Below, one piece after another: positions 44,054 through 54,536 of a stretch of DNA of 64,000 nt. Every line of letters begins with the position of its first letter. The stretch's first letter is position 1. Made by a program: the position numbers and the translations under genes. A model generated the notes under the pieces. The model ran no database searches. It saw nothing but the letters and a program-made list of their open reading frames with translations, and was not told where the DNA came from. This DNA is from Streptomyces sp. TLI_171 (GTDB lineage: Bacteria > Actinomycetota > Actinomycetes > Streptomycetales > Streptomycetaceae), in contig NZ_RAPS01000003.1 of assembly GCF_003610255.1 (NCBI RefSeq), positions 1-64,000 of the forward strand, read 5' to 3'.

Positions 44054-45253
44054 ATGGCATCTCCATACTCCGATGGGGAGCGGGAAAAGGTTGCGTCGAA
44101 GCTTCCGCCGACTCTCCGCCAAGCGCTGAAGACCCGGGCTGCGCAGCTCGGCATCGACATGCAGGTTGCGGTGACTGAGGGGGTCGAGCAGTGGCTGGCC
44201 CGTGAGGCCGGCCAGGAAGCGGTGGTCGACACCGCGGGTTCGGACAGCTTCAACACCTGGTTGCCCGCCGGCTTGTACGACACGTTCAAGGCCGAGTGCA
44301 CCGAGCGGGACATCTCATTCGCGCAGGGCATGGCCCAGGCTGTCCGGACGTGGGTGGATTCCCACCCGGCACCGCTCTCGGACCTGACGATCCCTCGGCA
44401 GACTCGGCGCTTCATCGTCTGCAACCAGAAGGGCGGCGTCGGCAAGACTACGGTGGCTGCCGGGCTCGCGCAGACGATAGCGCTGGGCCTGCCCGCGACG
44501 ACGGGCGCATCCAAGCTTCCGGCTCTTCCCGGCCTTCGCACGCTGCTGGTGGACTACGACCCGCAGGGGCACCTCACCGAGCAGTTGGGCTGCAAGCAGA
44601 TCGCGCCGGGCACCGAGAGCCTGGTGACGCACATGGTCGAACGCGAGCGCGTGGTCGGCGCGTTGATGGACCACGTCGTGCCCATCGCCCCTGACTTCTT
44701 CGACGACCGCCTGTTCCTGCTGCCGTCCTCGTTCGAGGCGTTCCTGCTCGACTCGAAGCTCGGCGGCGTCCGCGGCCCGCGCGAAGCTCTGCTGCAACGG
44801 GCGCTGGCCCCGCTCGAGGAGCACTTCGACGTCATCGTCATCGACGCCCCGCCGAACCTCGGCCTGGCGATGGACGCCGGCATCTACTACGCGCACCGCC
44901 GCAAGAACGAGCCGGCGGGCAACTCCGGCGTCGTCATCCCCGTCGAGGCCGAAGACTCCTCCGCCCACGCATACATGATGCTCGAGGGCCAGATCAACAC
45001 GGTCTCCCTCGACTACGAGGTCGACATCAACCGTCTGGGCCTGGTCGTCAACAAGTACGACGTCCGCAAGGGCTACGTCGTGGCAAAGGCCCTGGAGGAG
45101 TGGCAGGGCCTTCAGGACCCGCCCGTGCTGAGCATCCTGCCCGACCTGAAGGAACAGCGGGAGGCGGTGCACGTGAAGCAGCCGCTGCTGCAGTACGCAC
45201 CGGCCTCGACCCAGGCGCAGCGCATGCGCGAGATCCGTAGGAGGCTCGGATGA
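44054..45253 (+). CDS. parA: ParA partition ATPase
   Basis: 399 residues. Drives segregation of the replicon together with ParB. The deviant Walker A is QKGGVGKTT (125-133), Walker A' is LLVDYDPQGHLTEQLG and Walker B FDVIVIDAPPNLG. A 115-residue N-terminal extension with two helical, possibly ribbon-helix-helix-like repeats (LPPTLRQALKTRAAQLGIDM; LPAGLYDTFKAECTERDISF) probably binds DNA for autoregulation. The C-terminus keeps the QAQRMREI helix. The stop overlaps the parB start (ATGA). Confidence 0.93.
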   Translation: MASPYSDGEREKVASKLPPTLRQALKTRAAQLGIDMQVAVTEGVEQWLAREAGQEAVVDTAGSDSFNTWLPAGLYDTFKAECTERDISFAQGMAQAVRTWVDSHPAPLSDLTIPRQTRRFIVCNQKGGVGKTTVAAGLAQTIALGLPATTGASKLPALPGLRTLLVDYDPQGHLTEQLGCKQIAPGTESLVTHMVERERVVGALMDHVVPIAPDFFDDRLFLLPSSFEAFLLDSKLGGVRGPREALLQRALAPLEEHFDVIVIDAPPNLGLAMDAGIYYAHRRKNEPAGNSGVVIPVEAEDSSAHAYMMLEGQINTVSLDYEVDINRLGLVVNKYDVRKGYVVAKALEEWQGLQDPPVLSILPDLKEQREAVHVKQPLLQYAPASTQAQRMREIRRRLG

Positions 45254-46329
45254 GCGTCGCCAAGAAGCTCGCCGGCGGCGGGTCCGCGTTCAGCAGCCTG
45301 AGCGCCGCCAAGGGCGGTGACACGGCGGCAGCGGCGGAAGCCCGGAGCGAGGCGCTCGGCCGCGCCCGCAAGGCGTCGAGCGTGCCGCTGGCCGATGTCG
45401 TGTTCAACCCCCGCAACCCTCGCAAGACCTACAGCGAGGAGGCGATCGACGAGACCGCGGCGAGCATGCGGGAGATCGGGCAGACGACCGCGATCACTGT
45501 GGTGTCGCGGATGGCGTTCCTCGACGCGCACCCGGACGTCGCCCAGGAACTGCTGGGTGACGCATCGTTCGTCGCCCTCGACGGCAACCGGCGGATCCGA
45601 GCGGCCGGCCGGGCCGGTCTCGAGAAGATCCGGGTCGACCTGCAGGATGATCTCGCGGCAACCTCGTCCGCGATGCTCGAGGCCGCGCTGATCGCCAACA
45701 TCCACCGGGAGAATGTGCCGCCGATCGAGGAGGCGGAGGCGATCCAGGAGCTCCTTGACACCGTTCACGGAGGTAACCAGGCCGCGGTGGCGCGCCGTCT
45801 CGGGAAGACCGCGGCGTGGGTCGGCCAGCGGCTGGCGCTCCTTCATCTCGCCCCTGAGGTGAAGGAGATGGTGGAGAGTAAGGAGCTCGGGGTCAAGGAA
45901 GCCCGGAAGCTCGGTGCCGCGACCAGGGCCGGCACGCTGCCGCGCGAGGAGCAGGTCGCGAAGGCGCGCGAGGCACGGGACCAGCCTGCCCCGGTGACCG
46001 TGGCTCGGCCGCGCACGGAACCGGATGTAAACCCGGTTTACTCCCCCTCCCCCTCCCCCTCCGCCTCGTCCACCTCGACGGCGTCCTACGCACCGGACGT
46101 AAACCCGGTTTACACCGATGAGCAGACGGGCGGCACCGAACCTGCTGCCGGCACCGAGGGTTCCGGGATTCCGTCGGTCACGCTGACGGTCGACCCGAAC
46201 GACCCCGCCGGCTTTGCCGTGAGCATCCGCCTGGCGACGACGCCCCGTCAGGCCGCCGCAGTGGCGCGGGCACTGATCGAGTTGTTGGACTCCGAGCACA
46301 ACGCCGAGACGGTCGGCCAACCCGCTTGA
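45250..46329 (+). CDS. parB: ParB centromere-binding protein with embedded parS sites
   Basis: 359 residues. Binds parS, spreads and works with ParA. N-terminal ParB/Srx domain: PLADVVFNPRNPRKTYSEEA, then FVALDGNRRIRAAGRAGL (the CTPase fold; the usual GERRxRA motif reads GNRRIRA). NIHRENVPPIEEAEAI leads to the HTH NQAAVARRLGKTAAWVGQRL. A low-complexity Ser/Pro linker (about 255-300) contains VNPVY twice (260-264 and 284-288), each encoded exactly by the 15-bp palindrome. The C-terminal domain runs from about 305 to 359. Confidence 0.92.
   Translation: MSVAKKLAGGGSAFSSLSAAKGGDTAAAAEARSEALGRARKASSVPLADVVFNPRNPRKTYSEEAIDETAASMREIGQTTAITVVSRMAFLDAHPDVAQELLGDASFVALDGNRRIRAAGRAGLEKIRVDLQDDLAATSSAMLEAALIANIHRENVPPIEEAEAIQELLDTVHGGNQAAVARRLGKTAAWVGQRLALLHLAPEVKEMVESKELGVKEARKLGAATRAGTLPREEQVAKAREARDQPAPVTVARPRTEPDVNPVYSPSPSPSASSTSTASYAPDVNPVYTDEQTGGTEPAAGTEGSGIPSVTLTVDPNDPAGFAVSIRLATTPRQAAAVARALIELLDSEHNAETVGQPA
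46027..46041. promoter_or_regulatory. Putative parS site 1, inside parB
   Basis: GTAAACCCGGTTTAC, 7-bp arms around one C. Read in frame it encodes VNPVY. Confidence 0.75.
46099..46113. promoter_or_regulatory. Putative parS site 2, inside parB
   Basis: Identical 15-mer, 72 bp (24 codons) after site 1, again encoding VNPVY. Confidence 0.75.
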
Positions 46330-46339
46330 CGGCCTTCAT

Positions 46340-46354
46340 GTAAACCCGGTTTAC
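46340..46354. promoter_or_regulatory. Putative parS site 3, after parB
   Basis: Identical 15-mer starting 11 bp past the parB stop codon, outside any gene. Confidence 0.75.
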
Positions 46355-46373
46355 CTCGATGGCCAACCGCGGC

Positions 46374-46451
46374 GGCATCCCGGAACGATGGATGGGCCTG
46401 CACCCCCGAATGGTTTCGGGGGTGCAGGCCCATCCATCGTTCCGGGATGCC
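46374..46451. terminator. 37-bp perfect inverted repeat after parB
   Basis: Arms 46374-46410 and 46415-46451 are perfectly complementary with a 4-nt loop (TGGT). It lies 45 bp past parB and next to parS site 3. A bidirectional terminator is the simplest reading, but the stem is much longer than normal. Confidence 0.65.
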
Positions 46452-46519
46452 TGATCGCGACGGTCATAGAGGCCGACGGCAGGTGCGATGCGGAGGCCTA
46501 AGCCCCATCGGACACCACG

Positions 46520-46675
46520 TCAGAACGGATTCAAGTCGCGCAGGGTCTGGAGAAGCATGGCCAGGATCCGACGTGCTGCGGCACGCCGGTAGCCGTGCCG
46601 CGACCAGACCGCCGGCAGTACCACCCCGGCAAAGACCAGCAGTGCCAGCAGAAAGACCATCAGTTCGGTGCTCAC
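46520..46675 (-). CDS. Small membrane protein
   Basis: 51 residues from GTG 46675, with GAGGGAGTCGAGG just upstream. A hydrophobic helix (LMVFLLALLVFAGVVLPAVW, 5-24) is followed by a basic, helical tail. It is divergent from the NACHT gene and may be linked to it, but this is position only. Confidence 0.5.
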   Translation of the reverse strand: MSTELMVFLLALLVFAGVVLPAVWSRHGYRRAAARRILAMLLQTLRDLNPF

Positions 46676-46855
46676 CCTCGACTCCCTCGTGCCGCATTCG
46701 GTGCTTGCAGGGAGCACCTTCGGGCGATGCCAAGGCCCGGTTCCCGTACCGGGCCGAATCGGTATAGCTCCCCGATCGAGCCAGGCAGAGGCCTACGATG
46801 AGGCCAGCGGATCGGATGGATCCGGAACGTTCCGGGATGCGGGAGAACGGGAACG

Positions 46856-48948
46856 GTGGCGGAACACGCGCGGCAGCGGTTCACCGAGGCGCTGATCGAG
46901 GTCCATCAGGCAGCGGGCGCACCGAGCGTCGAACGCCTCGCCAAGGCCAGCGCCGCCCTCGGCGGACGACCGATCAGCAAGACGACCGCACATCGGCTGC
47001 TGAAGGGGAACTACCAACGCACGCCCGACTGGGACTATGTGGTGGCATTGCTGAACGCATGTCGCAGCTGCGCCCCCGAATCCCGTCCGGTGGCCGCTTC
47101 GCTGCTCGACTGGGCGCAATGGCAGCGTCGGTATACCGAGTTGGAGGCCCGGCTGGCAGAAGGGGTGTCCGTGCCACTCCCCCAGCCCGAACCGGCTGAC
47201 GATCCTGACACGACTATCGCTCTGCAGGCCTACGCCCGCAGAGTGGCTGAGACCTACGGACGGCTTGACCTCGAGGTCCTGACACCGGACCACGACCAGG
47301 GCGAGCAACCGGTCGTGGAACTGCGCGAGGTTTTCGTCCCCCCTTCAGTGCGGGCTGACCCTCCCTCGGTGGAATTGCCCCGCGAGCTGATGCAGCGGCT
47401 GGTCGAAGGCGGGGAGCTGGCCGTGGGTCAACTGCCGCCCGGCCTGGAAGCGGAGCTTTGGGCCGAGCTGCAGGAGGCCTACCGGCAACGGCCCAACCGG
47501 CCCGTTCTTGAAGTCCTCACAGACAACGACATACGCAGGACCGTGCTCCTGGGCGACCCCGGGGCCGGCAAGTCGACGCTCGCTCACTTCCTCGCGCTGG
47601 CCCTGACGGGTGCCGAGGTGGAGGGCGCGAAAGCCCTGGAACCCCTCGCTGGACTCGTTCCCCTGGTGATCGAGCTCCGCGCTTACGCGCAGGAGCGGTG
47701 GCAGGGAGCCACGTTCGAGGCATTCCTCGAGCATCTGTCGGCCACCGAAGGCATGGCGCCGCCCGCAGCCGTTCTGAGCCCGATCCTCGAACATGGCGGA
47801 GCGCTGGTCATTTTCGACGGTCTTGACGAGCTCTTCGATCCGCAGATCCGCGCGGAAACCTCACGCCGCATCGCCGGCTTCGCCGCCCGCTACCCGCAGT
47901 GCCGCATCCTCGTCACCTCGCGGGTCATCGGCTATCACCGCGTCGTCCTCGACGGTGCCGGGTTCGCACACCACATGCTCCAAGACCTCGACGACCGCCA
48001 GATCGCCGCCTTCGCCCGCCGCTGGTACAGCACCGCTTGCCCCGGAAAGCCCGCTGAAGCTACCCGTCTATTCACCCGTCTCAACGACGCCATCACTCGC
48101 TCACGACCAGTCAGAGAACTCGCCGGGAACCCCCTTCTTCTGACGATCCTCGCCATCCTCGGCCGCCGCCAGACCCTCCCCCGCGACCGCCACAGCGTCT
48201 ACCGACACGCCGTCACCGTCCTGGTGGCACGTTGGGACCGCGACGTCAAGCACCTCACATCTCACCTCCCGGCGGCCGTTGCCGACGCCCTTGACGTACT
48301 GGGCCAAGAGGAGCGACTCGAGGTCCTGCGACTGCTCGCCCGGCGTATGCAGGACGGCAAGGACGGCATCTCCGGCAATCACGTCCACGAGCAGGCCATC
48401 TACGAGGTCTTCCGGGACTACCTGGAGCTGTGCGACGTCTCCCCAGATCTGGCCCGGCGGGCCGCGCGTGCCATGGTTGACCAGCTCCGGGAACGCAACT
48501 TCATCCTGGCCCGCTACGGCGGCGGCGTGTATGGCTTCGTCCACCGCACGTTCCTCGAATACCTCGCGGCCGACGATCTCATCCACCGCTACGAACACGA
48601 ACGCGAGTGGACTCCGCAGCAACTCATCGACGAAGTCCTCGCCCCGCGTGCGGTGGACCCGAGCTGGCATGAGGTCCTGTTGCTGGTGGCCGGCCAGCTC
48701 AGGGAACGAGACGCTGGCGCTCTGGTGGACCGTCTCCTTCGTCTTCACCGCGACCACTCCGGTCAGGACGCCGCCGATCTGGTAGTCCTCGCCCTGCGCG
48801 CCCTCGGTGAGGTGAAGAAGATCGGCTCCGTGGCCCAGCAGAGCCGCGATGCGGTCGACGCGATCATCGCCTGCCTCACCGAGCGCGGCGAGACCGACCC
48901 AACCACGATCGATTCGATCGTCCCCCACCTCGAGACATTCAGTTCTCA
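46856..48948 (+). pseudogene. HTH-NACHT NTPase, 5' part of a gene split by an IS
   Basis: Codons 1-698 of a gene that continues at 50374. GTG 46856 follows GGGAG. Residues about 25-75 are HTH-like (RPISKTTAHRLLKGNYQRTP). The NACHT domain has Walker A GDPGAGKS (233-240), Walker B ALVIFDGLDELFD (316-328), the sensor CRILVTSRVIGYHR, and ARNPLLL-type helices (VRELAGNPLLLTILAILGRR). GFVHRTFLEYLAADDLIHRY and the beginning of a HEAT-like repeat region follow. NACHT STAND proteins of this shape often act in antiviral defence, sensing through the C-terminal repeats. The frame runs about 130 nt into the IS and ends at 49081, so the product would lack the sensor. Confidence 0.85.
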
Positions 48949-49010
48949 GAGGGTGGAATGTGAGCTGATGTCTGTTTCGTCGTTGTGGATGGAGTGGCTG
49001 TGCCAGGCGG

Positions 49011-49439
49011 CTACGGCCGTGGCAGGGCGAAGAGGCCCGGCTCGGGCTCGGTCAGGATGCCGCGCCCGGCCAGGCGCTTGAGCTTTGTCCGGACGTTGTT
49101 GATGTTGTTCGGCGTCAGGTCCAGGTCCGTCGCCCCGCATACGGCCCGCGCCCGTAGCGGACTGTCGGCCTCGGAGAACGCGGCCAGGATCTCCTGGTAG
49201 GCCGCCTTGTCCGGCAGTTCCGATCCGGCCGCCGACAGCGTGGGCGGGGTCGGCTCCGGCAGCTCCAGCAGCGTCTTGCGGGTGATCCGCACTTCCTCGG
49301 CAGCCCTGCCGAGTTCGTCCAGCATGGCGGTGAGCTGCGTGATCTGCGCGCGGGTCTGCTCTGCTTGCGCGACGATATCCCGTTCGCGCTCTTCCAGCCG
49401 TACCAACACCGCGCCGAGGGTGAGTTCCCCACCGGTCAT
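49011..49439 (-). CDS. IS passenger protein with coiled coil and winged-helix end
   Basis: 142 residues. ATG 49439 overlaps the transposase stop by 4 nt. Residues 10-55 are a heptad coiled coil (LVRLEERERDIVAQAEQTRA). The C-terminal half looks like a winged helix (LTPNNINNVRTKLKRLAGRG, then LTEPEPGLFAL). It may be a regulatory or accessory protein of the element, or bind its ends. Confidence 0.65.
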   Translation of the reverse strand: MTGGELTLGAVLVRLEERERDIVAQAEQTRAQITQLTAMLDELGRAAEEVRITRKTLLELPEPTPPTLSAAGSELPDKAAYQEILAAFSEADSPLRARAVCGATDLDLTPNNINNVRTKLKRLAGRGILTEPEPGLFALPRP

Positions 49440-50269
49440 GCGCCGCGCCAGGACGGGGTCGCGCTGCCGGTCAGCCGACGGGTCATCAGGTCGCTTATCG
49501 CCCAGTACACCCGGGACTCGGCCGACGAGGGCCGGTGCTCGTAGTCGCGTACCAGCCGCCGGTGCAGCATCAAGATCCCGTTCGTCTGCTCCACCCGCCA
49601 CCGGATCGGCTGCGGGACGAACCCGGTCTCGGTCGGGTTGCGTTCGACGATCTCGACCTCGATGCCCACCTGCCTGCCGTGGTCAACGACGGTCTTCTTG
49701 AACCCCTGGTCCACCATGGCCTTCGTCACCGTGCCGGCAGTACTGGCGGCGACCTTGTCGAGCAGGGCTGTGCCGAAGGCGTTGTCGTGGACGGAGGCGG
49801 CCAGCACCACCACGGCGATCACCAGGCCCAGCACGTCCACGGCGAGTCCCCTCTTGCGTCCCGGCACCTTCTTCGCCGCATCGCGACCCGTTGTCTCGGA
49901 GGGCACCCCGGCCGCGGCGTGCAGGCTCTGGGTGTCGATCACCACCAGGCTGGGGTCGGCTAATCGGCCCCTCCTCTCGCGGACCTGCCAGCGCAGCAGG
50001 TCGTGAATGACCTGGTCAGTGCCGTCATCACGCCACGTGTAGAAGTAGTACTTCACCGCGCCGGCAGGCGGCAGGTCGTGCGGGAGGTAGTCCCACTGGC
50101 ATCCGGTCCGGGACTGGTAGAGCAGCGCGTTGACAATCTCCCGCATCTCGTAACGGCCCTCGTGTCCGCTGACGGAGGGGTGCTGGGCCTTCCACGAGGT
50201 GATCACCGGCTCGACGAGCGCCCAGCGCTCGTCGGACAAGTCGCTCTTGTAAGGCTTGCGGTCAGTCAC
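49436..50269 (-). CDS. IS5-family DDE transposase
   Basis: 277 residues, full length and uninterrupted. The N-terminal DUF4096-type region is YKSDLSDERWALVEPVI and QSRTGCQWDYLPHDLPP. The catalytic acids are Asp in LVVIDTQSLHA, Asp in ASVHDNAFGTALLD and Glu in RWRVEQTNGILMLHRRLVRD. It should be active in principle. Confidence 0.93.
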   Translation of the reverse strand: MTDRKPYKSDLSDERWALVEPVITSWKAQHPSVSGHEGRYEMREIVNALLYQSRTGCQWDYLPHDLPPAGAVKYYFYTWRDDGTDQVIHDLLRWQVRERRGRLADPSLVVIDTQSLHAAAGVPSETTGRDAAKKVPGRKRGLAVDVLGLVIAVVVLAASVHDNAFGTALLDKVAASTAGTVTKAMVDQGFKKTVVDHGRQVGIEVEIVERNPTETGFVPQPIRWRVEQTNGILMLHRRLVRDYEHRPSSAESRVYWAISDLMTRRLTGSATPSWRGA

Positions 50270-50373
50270 GCACCTACCTCAGCACGGCGCCGGCCCGGCA
50301 ACGTGCCACAGACGGCGAGGCCACACGTTCAGGCGACGACAGAACGGATATCAGCTCACATTCCGCCCTCTCA

Positions 50374-51835
50374 GTGGGCCGGTCGCGCACGTGTCATGCA
50401 ATGGTTCAAGATCTGGGGACAGGGACGATTCGCAGGCGCTGGCGCGAGCCTGCTCTGCGCGGTCCACGACGAACCCTCAACAGCTGCCGCTCTCATCGAG
50501 ACCGCCTGGTCGCAGGCTGACCGGGTAGCAGCAGTCAGAGCGCTCGGTCGCTGGGCAAACCAGCCAGGAATCCTCGAAGCGCTGATTCGGCTGGCGGTCG
50601 ACCACTCCGAACCGCAAGTCAGGGCAGCAGCCCTCGCGACCATAGCTGCGTTGCCGCTCGACGCATCCAACTCGGCGACCGTGGTCACCCTCCTGCAGAG
50701 CAGGGCAACCCGAGACCCGGCCCCTGGCCCTCGCCGCGACGCGGTGTGGTTGCTCGGCCGCGATCCCGACAACGAGACCTCCAGAGCCATCGTGGCGGAC
50801 CGGGCGCTGCGAGACCCGTTCATCGCCGTTCGCGGGGCAGCGGTGAACGTGCTTCGCGACACGTGGGGCATCGATCGACACAGCCACATCATTCGTCGGG
50901 TTCCGGCTCAGTCACCGCAGAGCACGAAGAGGTGGTACTTCCCGACAGGCACCGTGGCCTTGGACACGGACGAACTCGTCGAGAAAGTTCGGAAAGAAGC
51001 GCCCAGGGCCCTGAACGCGTGGCGGAACGGAAACTTCGAACCGCTCGAATCCCTCATCCCCATGAGCTTCGGCATGTTGCGAGGCGGCCCGCTGCCCGCA
51101 GGGCTCGCCGCATATCAGCAAGTCTTCCGCACGTGGTTCGAGCAGCACCCCGCCGACTGGTCAATGATGGTCGAAGCGGTCGAAGCCGGACCTCGGCATC
51201 CGTTTCACGCGGTCGCCGCTGAGTTCGTCATCACCGTGAGCGACCCGCTCGCTGACCCCGGAGTGTTCGATCTCCTCATCCGTACGGCCACCAACGGGCA
51301 AGAGGTCCACCGGATGACATTGGACGGCCTCCGACGGTATCCGGCCGATGCCCCCCACCTTCGCGACACCATGCTGCACATCGCCACCCACAACCGAGTA
51401 CCTGCCCACCGGCGCATCGCCCTGGAATGGCTGCTCCAACGCCGACCAACCGGAGTCGACTACGTACCTTTCCTACTCGAGCGCGCAACCAACGAACCCG
51501 ACACAGAGGTCCGGCTTGTCGCCCGCCGCGCACTCGCCCTGTGGTGGCCGAACGACCCCCGCTGCGCCGCCCACTTCCGTGCGCTCGCTCCGCACGAGGA
51601 CACCGTCGAGGAACGCTGGACACGGTTCCGAGGACTTGCGGCCACCGGCAGCACGGACACTGAACTCCTCGGCATTCTGGAGACGGAGCCGGACGACGAA
51701 CTGCGAACCTGGATGCGTGGTGTGATCGAGCCTCACCGTGAGTCGGACCTACTCCGCCGTACCTTGCTTGCCTCCATCACCCGCGCCATGACTCGGCTCG
51801 CATCCTCGAACCTGATGAGAGCTGGACGGAAATGA
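50374..51835 (+). pseudogene. HEAT-repeat 3' part of the split NACHT gene
   Basis: Continues the frame broken at 48948: joining the two parts gives 3,555 nt, an exact 1,185 codons with stop. It begins WAGRARVMQWFKIWGQ. The repeats include ADRVAAVRALGRWANQPGIL, PQVRAAALATIAALPLD, IAVRGAAVNVLRDTW and, later, TEVRLVARRALALWWPNDP. These HEAT-like repeats would be the sensor region. Without the IS the protein would have about 1,184 residues. An open frame entering from the IS could still express this half alone. Confidence 0.85.
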
Positions 51836-51952
51836 CTCTGCGCTGCTTCTGGCCTGGCCGCTGACGCCACGGGCCACTCGGAAGCGGGCGAGAAACGCGC
51901 CGAGCTGCTGTGAGCCGCGGATGACGGCACGGTGGCTCATCAGGAGGTGGAG

Positions 51953-51967
51953 GTAAACCCGGTTTAC
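51953..51967. promoter_or_regulatory. Putative parS site 4
   Basis: Perfect 15-mer at the start of the decayed parB copy. Confidence 0.72.
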
Positions 51968-51999
51968 TCCCCCTCCGCCCTCGAATGCGTCCTGCGGAC

Positions 52000-52014
52000 C
52001 TGCACCCGGTTTAC
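52000..52014. promoter_or_regulatory. Degenerate parS half-site
   Basis: CTGCACCCGGTTTAC: the right half of the site is intact, with three mismatches in the left half. It corresponds to site 2 in the copy. Confidence 0.5.
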
Positions 52015-52219
52015 ACCAGGAGCAGACAGGTGCTGGCCCTGCGGCCGGTGCCAAAGGTTATGGGATCCCTTCGGTCGCGCTGACGGTCGATCCGACCGAG
52101 CTTGACGGCTTCGCTGTCAGCGTCCGACGGGCGACAACGCCCCGTCAGGCTGCCACGGCCGCGTAGCAACTGATCGAGTTGTGGGACAACGTCGATACGG
52201 CTGTCGAAGCTTGTTTGAC

Positions 52220-52234
52220 GTAAACCCGGTTTAC
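52220..52234. promoter_or_regulatory. Putative parS site 5
   Basis: Perfect 15-mer, equivalent to site 3 and positioned just after the former stop codon. Confidence 0.72.
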
Positions 52235-52268
52235 GCGGTCCCCAGCGCGGGCTCTCCGGGGGGAGGAC

Positions 52269-52283
52269 GCAAACCGGGTCTAC
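52269..52283. promoter_or_regulatory. Degenerate parS-like site, inverted
   Basis: On the minus strand it reads GTAGACCCGGTTTGC, two mismatches from the 15-mer. Confidence 0.4.
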
Positions 52284-52654
52284 TCGAAACGGGCTGGCTG
52301 GGCTGTTGACCTCTGAGGCAAGCGGGCCGGCCCGGACCGCCTTCGACGCGCGGCTCCTGATGGCGCGCAAGCTAGAACCGCCAGAAGGCTGCACCCTGAG
52401 TTCCATGGTCGAGGCTTATGAGCTCGCCGAGCCACTGAGCGACAGCATCTGCGACTGATCCGTCAACGCCAGCATGCCTGGGGCGCGACACCCGGAGCGC
52501 CCTGGAACTCCGGAGCCCCTGAAGCCTCACGTTCTCCAGCAGGGCGAGGTCGTCGTCCGGCTGGGTCCGGTCCCAGGGTGAGCGTTGGCACCGGGAGACT
52601 CCAGTTCGTCCGACGCCACCGGCGCGGTGGTCGGTCCTGGTGGTGTCTTCTGGC
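52284..52654. other. Intergenic, no intact gene
   Basis: 371 bp with weak coding bias, between the parS cluster and a leftward gene. I see nothing recognisable; it may be further decayed sequence. Confidence 0.35.
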
Positions 52655-53647
52655 CTATCGGCTCGGCGGCAGTGCAGCCGTCGCGGCGTCCCTGGCTGTC
52701 GCCAGCGCCTCGGTGAGCGACAGGGCAGCTGCGGAGGCCCTCTCAGTCAGCGCCTTGATCTCGCCGACCGCGAGCTCGGACGCCGCCGTCTCTGCGGCGA
52801 GGCCCATGAGGGCCTCGCCCCGCATTTCCAGCCGCTCCATCGCCTGCCGACTGGCCGCGATCCGGTCGACTTCCTGTGCCTGGCGGGCGTAGGCCTCCAG
52901 CGCGACGACCTGGTGCTCGACGTCGGAGCGCGCAGCCTCCAGGATGGCCAGCTCCCCCGCCAGAAACTCCTTGGAGGTCGGCGTCTCGTCGCTGCCGTCC
53001 ATTCGGGCGCTGGCCGTGGCCCGGCTGTACCGGTGCAGCGACTGGGCGATGGACCAGATCTGGTCCGGCATCTGCGTGCGGTTAGCGGTGCCCAGGCCCT
53101 CCATGTCCTGGATGTGCAGCTGGGAGTGCAGGACGGTGCTCTCGGCCTGCTGCGCCCGGGCGAGGAGCGGGGCGGCGTCGCTCGTGAGCCAGCTCGGATG
53201 GATGTAGTGCCCGCGGGCTTGATCGAGGGCCCGTGCCATCCTGCGGCTGTCCGACACCCGATAGCCGAGCAGAGCAGCGGCGCAGACTACGCCGGCTGCG
53301 GCAATCATTGCCCCGCCGTTCTGGAACAGGTCGAGGGCCGAACGAATCAGGGTGGCGACCTGCTCCTCGCGGTGGCCGAGATCGGTGTCGGGGTACGCCG
53401 TGGGCTCACCGATCAGCCATTTGGTCATCCAGGCGGTGGCACCGACGCCCGCGCCTCCCAGCACAGCCTCGATGGACGTTCTCAGCACCCGTCCGCCCTC
53501 GACGTTCGTGACCGTCGCGTCGGCACCGGTGGCCAGCAACTCCGGTGTCTCCTCGACCAGGCCGGCGACCGCGCGCACGACCGACTCGGGTACGGCAGGG
53601 TCGAAGACCGGACGTACCACGACCTTCACGGGCTGGGCCTTTGTCAC
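52655..53647 (-). CDS. Membrane-associated coiled-coil protein
   Basis: 330 residues from GTG 53647, with GAAAGGG upstream. After a short N-terminal domain there are two hydrophobic segments (AVLGGAGVGATAWMTKWLIG, about 60-80; GGAMIAAAGVVCAAALLGYR, about 110-130). Long helices with heptads follow (LAILEAARSDVEHQVVALEA; TERASAAALSLTEALATARD). No family recognised. The layout suggests a membrane protein with a large cytoplasmic coiled coil. Confidence 0.6.
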   Translation of the reverse strand: MTKAQPVKVVVRPVFDPAVPESVVRAVAGLVEETPELLATGADATVTNVEGGRVLRTSIEAVLGGAGVGATAWMTKWLIGEPTAYPDTDLGHREEQVATLIRSALDLFQNGGAMIAAAGVVCAAALLGYRVSDSRRMARALDQARGHYIHPSWLTSDAAPLLARAQQAESTVLHSQLHIQDMEGLGTANRTQMPDQIWSIAQSLHRYSRATASARMDGSDETPTSKEFLAGELAILEAARSDVEHQVVALEAYARQAQEVDRIAASRQAMERLEMRGEALMGLAAETAASELAVGEIKALTERASAAALSLTEALATARDAATAALPPSR

Positions 53648-53993: not shown

Positions 53994-54536
53994 TTACAGC
54001 AGCGCGAGCTGATTGTCGTCCGACTCGGGTCCGTCCTCGACGCGCGCGTCGGCGCGGGCCTCGTCGTGCTCCGGGTCGGCGCGGTCGCAGAGGAGGCGGC
54101 CGGTGGGCAGTTCGCCCCAGCCGCGACAGTCGACTGCGTCGTCGGCGGCTGCCTCCGGGCTGTCGTGGTGGGGGATGAACTCGTCCTCGACCGTGTCACC
54201 GCAGATGCTGCACTTGGCGGTCCAGCACAGCGTCGGGACGGCGATGCCTGCGCCCGAGCGGGCCGCGCCCTCGCGGCGCCAGGCGTAGCCGTGGTTGAGG
54301 ACGACGGCGTAGCTGACGGGCTGGAGCGGGTGGCCGTCGTCGAGGTCGGCGGTCAGGGCGTTGTGCTCGGCGGCGGCCATGAGCGCGGTGGCGATGTCGG
54401 GCATCTCCAGCAGGGTGTTGGGGCCGGTGAGCCACAGTTCCCACTCGCGGGTGGGGGTACCGGGGCGCAGCCGCTGGTGGGGTTCGGTGGCGAAGAGGCG
54501 GCGGCGGGCAGCGGGGGACAGGTTGGGGGTGGTCAT
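53994..54536 (-). CDS. Hypothetical protein with a Cys motif and QLALL end
   Basis: 180 residues. CWTAKCSICGDTVEDEF and a later Cys pair (AVDCRG; LLCDRADPEHD) suggest a zinc site. The acidic C-terminus ends in QLALL, close to the clamp-binding pentapeptide QLxLF/L. No family recognised. Last gene of the dnaN-side array. Confidence 0.6.
   Translation of the reverse strand: MTTPNLSPAARRRLFATEPHQRLRPGTPTREWELWLTGPNTLLEMPDIATALMAAAEHNALTADLDDGHPLQPVSYAVVLNHGYAWRREGAARSGAGIAVPTLCWTAKCSICGDTVEDEFIPHHDSPEAAADDAVDCRGWGELPTGRLLCDRADPEHDEARADARVEDGPESDDNQLALL

Follow-up and report, generated by a model that had tools for sequence, protein, structure and literature searches.

The locus considered here raises the question of how a second, broken 3' end of a parB gene came to lie beyond a gene for a NACHT protein that itself follows an intact parB. 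The window, by which we mean the whole 64,000-nucleotide stretch of Streptomyces sp. TLI_171 DNA, corresponds to the opening 64 kb of a contig (C3) of 176,253 bases in a genome of 8.46 Mb; no inverted repeat was found between the first and the last 3 kb of this contig. The comparison set comprised 70 genomes of the genus, its own included. On the plus strand, parA (44054–45253; 399 residues) encodes a ParA-type ATPase (Pfam AAA_31, E = 2.1e-19; CbiA, E = 4.3e-15) and is 82–96% identical in DNA, per 200-nt block, to parA of the relative designated G037. It adjoins the live copy of parB (45250–46329, plus strand; 359 residues), whose product contains ParB_N (E = 3.2e-8) and HTH_ParB (E = 1.6e-12) domains and scores above the cut-off of NCBIfam TIGR00180; a single-sequence structure prediction for this protein was poor (mean pLDDT 45). 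Palindromic putative parS sites are present at the locus, with no exact copy elsewhere in the 8.46 Mb, as in plasmid ParABS systems of the HTH-ParB type.

Three exact copies of the palindrome GTAAACCCGGTTTAC accompany the live gene. Two are in the parB frame, where each reads VNPVY (46027–46041, codons 260–264, and 46099–46113, codons 284–288), and the third (46340–46354) is directly 3' of the stop codon, at the point where clear similarity to both the second parB end and G037 stops. The only other exact copies in the genome, at 51953 and 52220, are in the second parB end; when up to three mismatches are allowed on both strands, the window holds 13 matches as compared with 0.13 expected. The palindromes are likely to be parS, because parB1 of the Streptomyces linear plasmid SCP1 is reported to contain one ChIP-mapped parS1 site (PMC13245405). 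The two SCP1 systems, ParABS1 and ParABS2, have three identical inverted-repeat parS sites per operon, of 13 bp, and of 19 bp of which a 15-bp core suffices, as located by ChIP-seq and binding assays (PMC13245405). Their likeness to the window, a plasmid HTH-type ParB with inverted-repeat sites, is one of description and not of site letters; they differ in that the parts of that text available to us contain nothing on a second parB end, on cargo between copies or on a codon-phase pattern. The parAB locus of SLP2 from Streptomyces lividans (NC_004933) resembles that of the window in that its ParB is 53% identical over residues 43–248 and its parB contains two in-frame palindromes, but these have GTTAAC-type arms; the 5.6 kb read there, of which 2.2 kb lie beyond parB, contain no second parB end.

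Palindromes of the form GTwAACnnnGTTwAC, or of its core TwAACnnnGTTwA, were found inside 32 of 34 parB genes read (13 of 14 in the set that includes the window and 19 of 20 in the other), with one to three in each gene. These loci (the window parB with L006, L151, L153–L157, L159–L163, L185, L201 and L204–L222) were picked by similarity to the window ParB, not randomly; 656 plasmid records matched this ParB, and some of the 34 loci came from outside those records. All 67 palindromes start on the first base of a codon, in phase 0 (27/27 and 40/40, overlapping pairs counting as two); because the genes share ancestry, these 67 are not independent observations, and the pattern was set after the first ones had been seen. 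They are read as VNxVY or VNxVN repeats (VNPVY, VNGVY, VNAVY, VNRVY, VNPVN and others) and are located between the HTH and the C-terminal part in the alignment of the 14-gene set and 145–451 nt before the stop in the 20-gene set. The two exceptions are pSA3239, with no palindrome in parB, and L163, with none in the frame read. Because the palindromes are inside parB, a displaced parB end takes parS-like sites along with it.

In three plasmid loci of this set (L209, NZ_CP097323; L220, NZ_CP108358; L222, NZ_CP108097), 13 to 16 parB-type palindromes are present outside parB in the stretch read, some of them, in L209 and L222, within a long HTH-protein gene directly after parB. In G037 the site type differs by contig, being GTAAAC...GTTTAC on one and GTTAAC...GTTAAC on another. 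A contig scan with the exact pattern returned at least 119 stretches, and among the matches listed a single one was from the Streptomycetaceae, Yinghuangia soli (L120); no parA or parB match was found in that stretch or in two further stretches tested. Genomes G050, G125 and G135 have single palindromes with no parAB nearby, and G142 has three together with parAB. A distant search for the parB end in plasmids gave one unrelated short match. Full-text literature searches with the palindrome letters found no plasmid paper, and searches for second parB ends found no title or abstract opening on the subject.

The second parB end (copy 2; 51949–52283, plus strand) was aligned base by base with 46023–46354. 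As the earlier note had claimed for 51950–52234, it is a broken copy of the parB 3' end with its reading frame lost and its outer palindromes perfect. Its counterpart in the live gene spans the linker to beyond the stop, and outside the palindromes 184 of 241 aligned bases (76%) are the same, as compared with 42 of 45 inside them (P = 0.003 in a simple comparison). One frame opens with VNPVYSPSA, and the other continues as ...IPSVALTVDP...ATTPRQAATAA, a stop in the core and then QLIELW...; when the contig was searched with ParB by tblastn, the only match beyond parB was of residues 307–352 at copy 2 (65% identity, E = 1.5e-10). The sites at 51953–51967 and 52220–52234 are exact, the middle one (52000–52014) has lost one half and has three mismatches, and a fourth, degenerate site with two mismatches is at 52269–52283, where it is the counterpart of a site in G037 that the live parB lacks. 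The half-lost and the degenerate site are absent from the earlier note, as is an insertion sequence in the NACHT gene. A chance repeat is ruled out by the alignment and by the 13 palindrome matches where 0.13 are expected. An assembly artefact is ruled out because the copies differ at about one-quarter of the positions outside the palindromes and a second plasmid record has the same layout. Duplication driven by the insertion sequence is ruled out because that element is confined to the NACHT gene, clear of both copies.

The cargo between the copies begins with a perfect 37-bp inverted repeat with a 4-nt loop (46374–46451; z = -14.5 for 46355–46470), between the convergent parB and small gene, that is probably a two-way terminator; its arms have a 13-mer in common with the sequence 16–28 nt upstream of the NACHT start. 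The small divergent gene (46520–46675, minus strand) encodes about 51 residues from a conserved GTG, in an open frame that extends to 46717, with one hydrophobic segment as judged by eye; it had no match in Pfam, PADLOC or NCBIfam. The NACHT gene is in two parts, both on the plus strand: a 5' part (46856–48948) with the N-terminal region and the NACHT NTPase (Pfam E = 9.3e-10), and a 3' part (50371–51835) with HEAT repeats (Pfam HEAT_2, E = 8.8e-15). Between them is an IS5-family element of 1,422 bp (48949–50370, minus strand) with TCA target repeats and terminal inverted repeats matching at 25 of 30 bases; it contains a transposase gene (49436–50269; NCBIfam NF033580, 147 bits with a cut-off of 110) and a second open frame. 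The 5' part is 70% identical to residues 94–798 of a protein of genome G031, and the 3' part aligns with the same protein from residue 800 onward at 30% identity; because the two halves match consecutive stretches, the gene has been split by the element. The bracketing described in the earlier note, in which the repeats flank the NACHT gene and its small divergent neighbor, is thus as stated except that the NACHT gene is interrupted. An intact defense gene is ruled out by the element, which makes the NACHT gene probably inactive, as judged from its sequence.

The cargo unit, the small gene with the NACHT gene, appears to be foreign to the par locus, because the closest homologue detected belongs to the chromosome of another genome and also has the small gene as its neighbor. 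Among the 70 genomes, the nearest homologue of the 5' part is the intact G031 gene (74% identity; open frame of 1272 residues), which is also adjoined by a small gene; the latter is 83% identical to that of the window over 46 residues, and DNA similarity begins at window position 46561. NACHT matches at 1e-40 or better occur in 12 of the 70 genomes, its own included, and in none of the other 11 was the match on a contig with a strong par match; seven plasmids carry a relative of the NACHT gene. As in bacterial NACHT antiphage proteins such as EruA (NCBIfam NF058535), there is a NACHT NTPase core, with HEAT repeats in the 3' part, but the match to EruA is partial (40 bits with a cut-off of 1000) and the window gene is split. 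No named defense family could be assigned, the PADLOC matches being partial and weak (PtuA, E = 2.9e-4; HEAT-ARM_XIII, E = 2.7e-7). The NACHT gene is preceded, at 46824, by a palindrome, GGAACGTTCC, that is also conserved at the chromosomal homologue (L184, 3444) and is a possible operator of a shared divergent promoter. The TLI_171 genome has a second such NACHT gene on contig C1 (G000:C1:3213501-3215210), 49% identical and with 1345 residues in its open frame.

The nearest parB with this type of site is that of G037 (contig C56), at 78% DNA identity. Its stop codon is followed by ATAAACCCGGTTTAC and, 59 bases on, by GTAAACCGGGTTTAC, which is a perfect fourth site. Both trailing sites have counterparts in copy 2, perfect at 52220 and with two mismatches at 52269, the latter agreeing with GTAAACCGGGTTTAC in place and in the orientation of the center. 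In the live parB the counterpart of ATAAACCCGGTTTAC is present and that of GTAAACCGGGTTTAC is absent, clear similarity ending with site 3. In G037, parB is followed by one gene, for a SUFU-domain protein, and then by sequence similar to window positions 53995–54374, and so the backbone that follows parB in the relative is found beyond copy 2 in the window. The shared fourth site and this backbone place copy 2 in the position of the relative's parB end. The downstream side of copy 2 appears to be the original downstream side of parB, as supported by the fourth site, by the backbone near 54 kb and by a direct parallel in Streptomyces sp. NBC_00016. A par module is also near the same backbone block (window 54052 onward) in G018 (L156), in the orientation opposite to that in the window. 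The earlier note had looked to relatives in which parB runs directly into the sequence from 52284 onward; no match to 52284–52660 was seen in the 70 genomes, its own aside, or in plasmids, and such an empty site was found only for the parallel in NBC_00016. No relative was seen with the NACHT gene in place and the second repeat missing, the arrangement that the earlier note had named as contrary to its reading.

In the NBC_00016 plasmid (NZ_CP108305), parB is followed by a gene for a NucA/NucB nuclease (Pfam E = 4e-10) and an open frame of 167 residues, and then, 2.6 kb after parB, by a second parB end. This orphan is 526 nt long and 81% identical to the live gene with the palindromes unmasked, with one gap that gives one frameshift; with the palindromes masked, 481 nt match at 75% (E = 2.9e-83). 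The block 3' of the orphan begins 73–143 nt past the parB stop in four of 13 loci tested (S1D4-14, S. rochei, S. griseofuscus and NBC_01255); three of the 13 (L223, L225 and L226) had been chosen for carrying the block, L224, likewise chosen, was left out, and S1D4-14, which is L225, has a ParB of another type. A tree built from the orphan and 11 parB ends (12 sequences) joins the two NBC_00016 copies as sisters with support of 1.0; six of the 17 genes gave no match to the anchor pattern and were omitted from it. The branch of the live copy has a dN/dS of 0.19–0.22 and that of the orphan 1.2–1.6, with a 5–95% range from roughly 0.4 to 11. In the orphan, the arms of all three palindromes are intact (P = 0.035–0.046 relative to its own background), whereas of those in the live parB one is exact and two have one mismatch. 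The orphan is annotated as two hypothetical proteins, and partial translation may persist, as the first 131 codons are open.

A long second parB end is thus present in two of the 34 loci, the window included. In the group of the window, an unmasked search of 13 relatives found no second parB end longer than 58 nt, and among the best five matches per locus in 20 Streptomyces plasmid par loci no other masked match exceeded 62 nt. The stretch read past parB was 5.6 kb or longer in 23 of the 33 relatives and shorter in the other 10, so that further second ends could exist. When the C-terminal part of the NBC_00016 ParB was used in tblastn, 36 plasmid records matched, with two places in NBC_00016 only, suggesting that such orphans are not common among close relatives. 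Downstream of parB, NBC_00289 has sites at 865 and 923 nt and NBC_01220 has sites at 1466 and 1545 nt, and these could be older remnants; around those of NBC_00289 there is short similarity that disappears when the palindromes are masked. An apparent lone parB end in S. libani pSP90, taken from the search list, yielded nothing clear on inspection.

The decay of copy 2 bears on whether its sites are being kept. At positions where the live parB and G037 agree, copy 2 retains 124 of 151 bases outside and 41 of 44 inside the palindromes (P = 0.03). The probability of two of four ancestral sites staying intact is 0.015 for a copy 2 that evolved neutrally throughout and 0.04–0.25 at lower neutral rates, the upper value applying if it still coded through much of its divergence. 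The degenerate sites at 52000 and 52269 have changed at three and two of 15 bases, near the copy 2 background of 18%, so just two of the four sites argue for retention. Selection may plausibly maintain the orphan sites, as the earlier note proposed, with these values and the 0.035–0.046 of NBC_00016 lending this a little weight; the contrary case, in which the palindromes are no better kept than the rest of the copy, is answered weakly. Changes on the copy 2 branch are even across the codon positions (7, 6 and 8), and those on the G037 branch (11, 11 and 16) also have no strong bias; the spread over codon positions alone therefore cannot date the loss of coding. Polarized on G037, dN/dS is 0.16 for the live branch and 0.62 for copy 2, which is in favor of a displaced end; that the bootstrap interval of copy 2 (5–95%, 0.23–2.8) is wide and takes in values of constrained genes is a point against it.

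We favor, with a probability of roughly 0.57, the reading in which an incoming parB end, together with the small-gene/NACHT unit, displaced the plasmid's own former parB 3' end downstream, where it became copy 2. The earlier note had offered either a duplicated end or an older one left behind; the older end fits better, and duplication remains the weaker option. In an in-place duplication the parB 3' end would have been duplicated in tandem, the NACHT unit would later have landed between the copies and the outer copy would have decayed. Such a history accounts for the copies being closer to each other than to G037 (dS 0.54 as compared with 0.99) and for the copy 2 branch looking mostly unconstrained, and the sister copies of NBC_00016 are also expected from it; that copies 1 and 2 are each other's nearest known relatives likewise counts against a displaced end, and no recombination breakpoint came to light within the live parB. 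However, after a tandem duplication of the whole end, the fourth site and the downstream flank would also be expected behind the live parB, where both are absent, the break falling right at the end of site 3, and the same outcome with different cargo in two plasmids would require two two-step histories, which leaves duplication in place rather unlikely.

The divergence between the copies is as large as that between parB genes of different plasmids, and it has been argued from SCP1 that plasmids with several par loci arise by recombination of such kinds (PMC13245405, as far as the text available to us goes); copy 2 might then be the last trace of a second par locus from the fusion of two related plasmids. 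This is improbable, since tblastn of the 176-kb contig found no remnant of the portion of a second parAB upstream of the linker and the deletion would need to have ended inside parB in both cases; in the loci read, no cargo was seen between two complete parB genes. In the integrative elements of the icd 3' end, as described in the part of PMC10111431 available to us, attP supplies a replacement sequence, so that the gene stays functional, and the displaced end is found beyond the cargo. Both cases here have this layout, a displaced 3' end beyond cargo and an intact target gene, and an element that targeted the parB 3' end and has since lost its integrase would produce it. The differences are that no integrase or recombinase was found between the copies in either case (Pfam, annotation), the IS5 transposase belonging to the insertion inside the NACHT gene, that the copies are about 76–81% identical over hundreds of bases and are not an identity block, and that the orphans start at different points of parB, in the linker here and near the end of the HTH domain in NBC_00016. 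A site-specific element is accordingly very improbable.

In the displaced-end reading, the outer copy is the native one, as the flank demonstrates in NBC_00016 and as we infer for the window. By the route that we infer, the small-gene/NACHT unit would have entered the par locus by recombination, on DNA in which it was preceded by a related parB 3' end or by an entire parAB. The incoming tail would have restored parB, and the old tail would have stayed by its old flank, lost its frame and decayed as a protein while keeping two perfect and two degenerate sites, the perfect ones being identical to the sites in the live gene. ParB would be predicted to load at both clusters, about 5.6 kb apart and flanking the cargo, and would spread from both as clamps. 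The cargo would fall inside the partition complex, because enrichment on SCP1 is reported to extend over about 15–20 kb (PMC13245405), as compared with 6.3 kb here.

Extra sites on accessory DNA that use a plasmid's ParABS have been described as the parS-like repeats of SGI1 (PMC10954446), but those, according to the portion of the paper at hand, sit on another element and destabilize the helper plasmid, whereas the sites in the window are on the same plasmid and would be descended from parB itself. Broken parB tails may serve as spare centromeres. More speculatively, and with the odds well against it, the parB tail could be both a docking site and a portable centromere, such that DNA bringing its own tail settles behind parB, the displaced tail persists as a parS cluster that no longer codes for ParB and the partition complex spans the cargo. 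If so, the cargo would be locked in, because most recombination between the copies would excise it but, the displaced tail being frame-broken, would break parB, and orphan parB tails may be one source of parS-like sites outside parB. In these plasmids the parB tail both encodes protein and carries centromere-like sites, and an orphan tail separates these roles naturally: its coding role is lost while some of the sites remain, which makes the retention of sites for partition testable. Such tails offer a simple origin for parS-like sites away from parB, and the layout suggests a route by which cargo genes may settle beside a plasmid maintenance gene.
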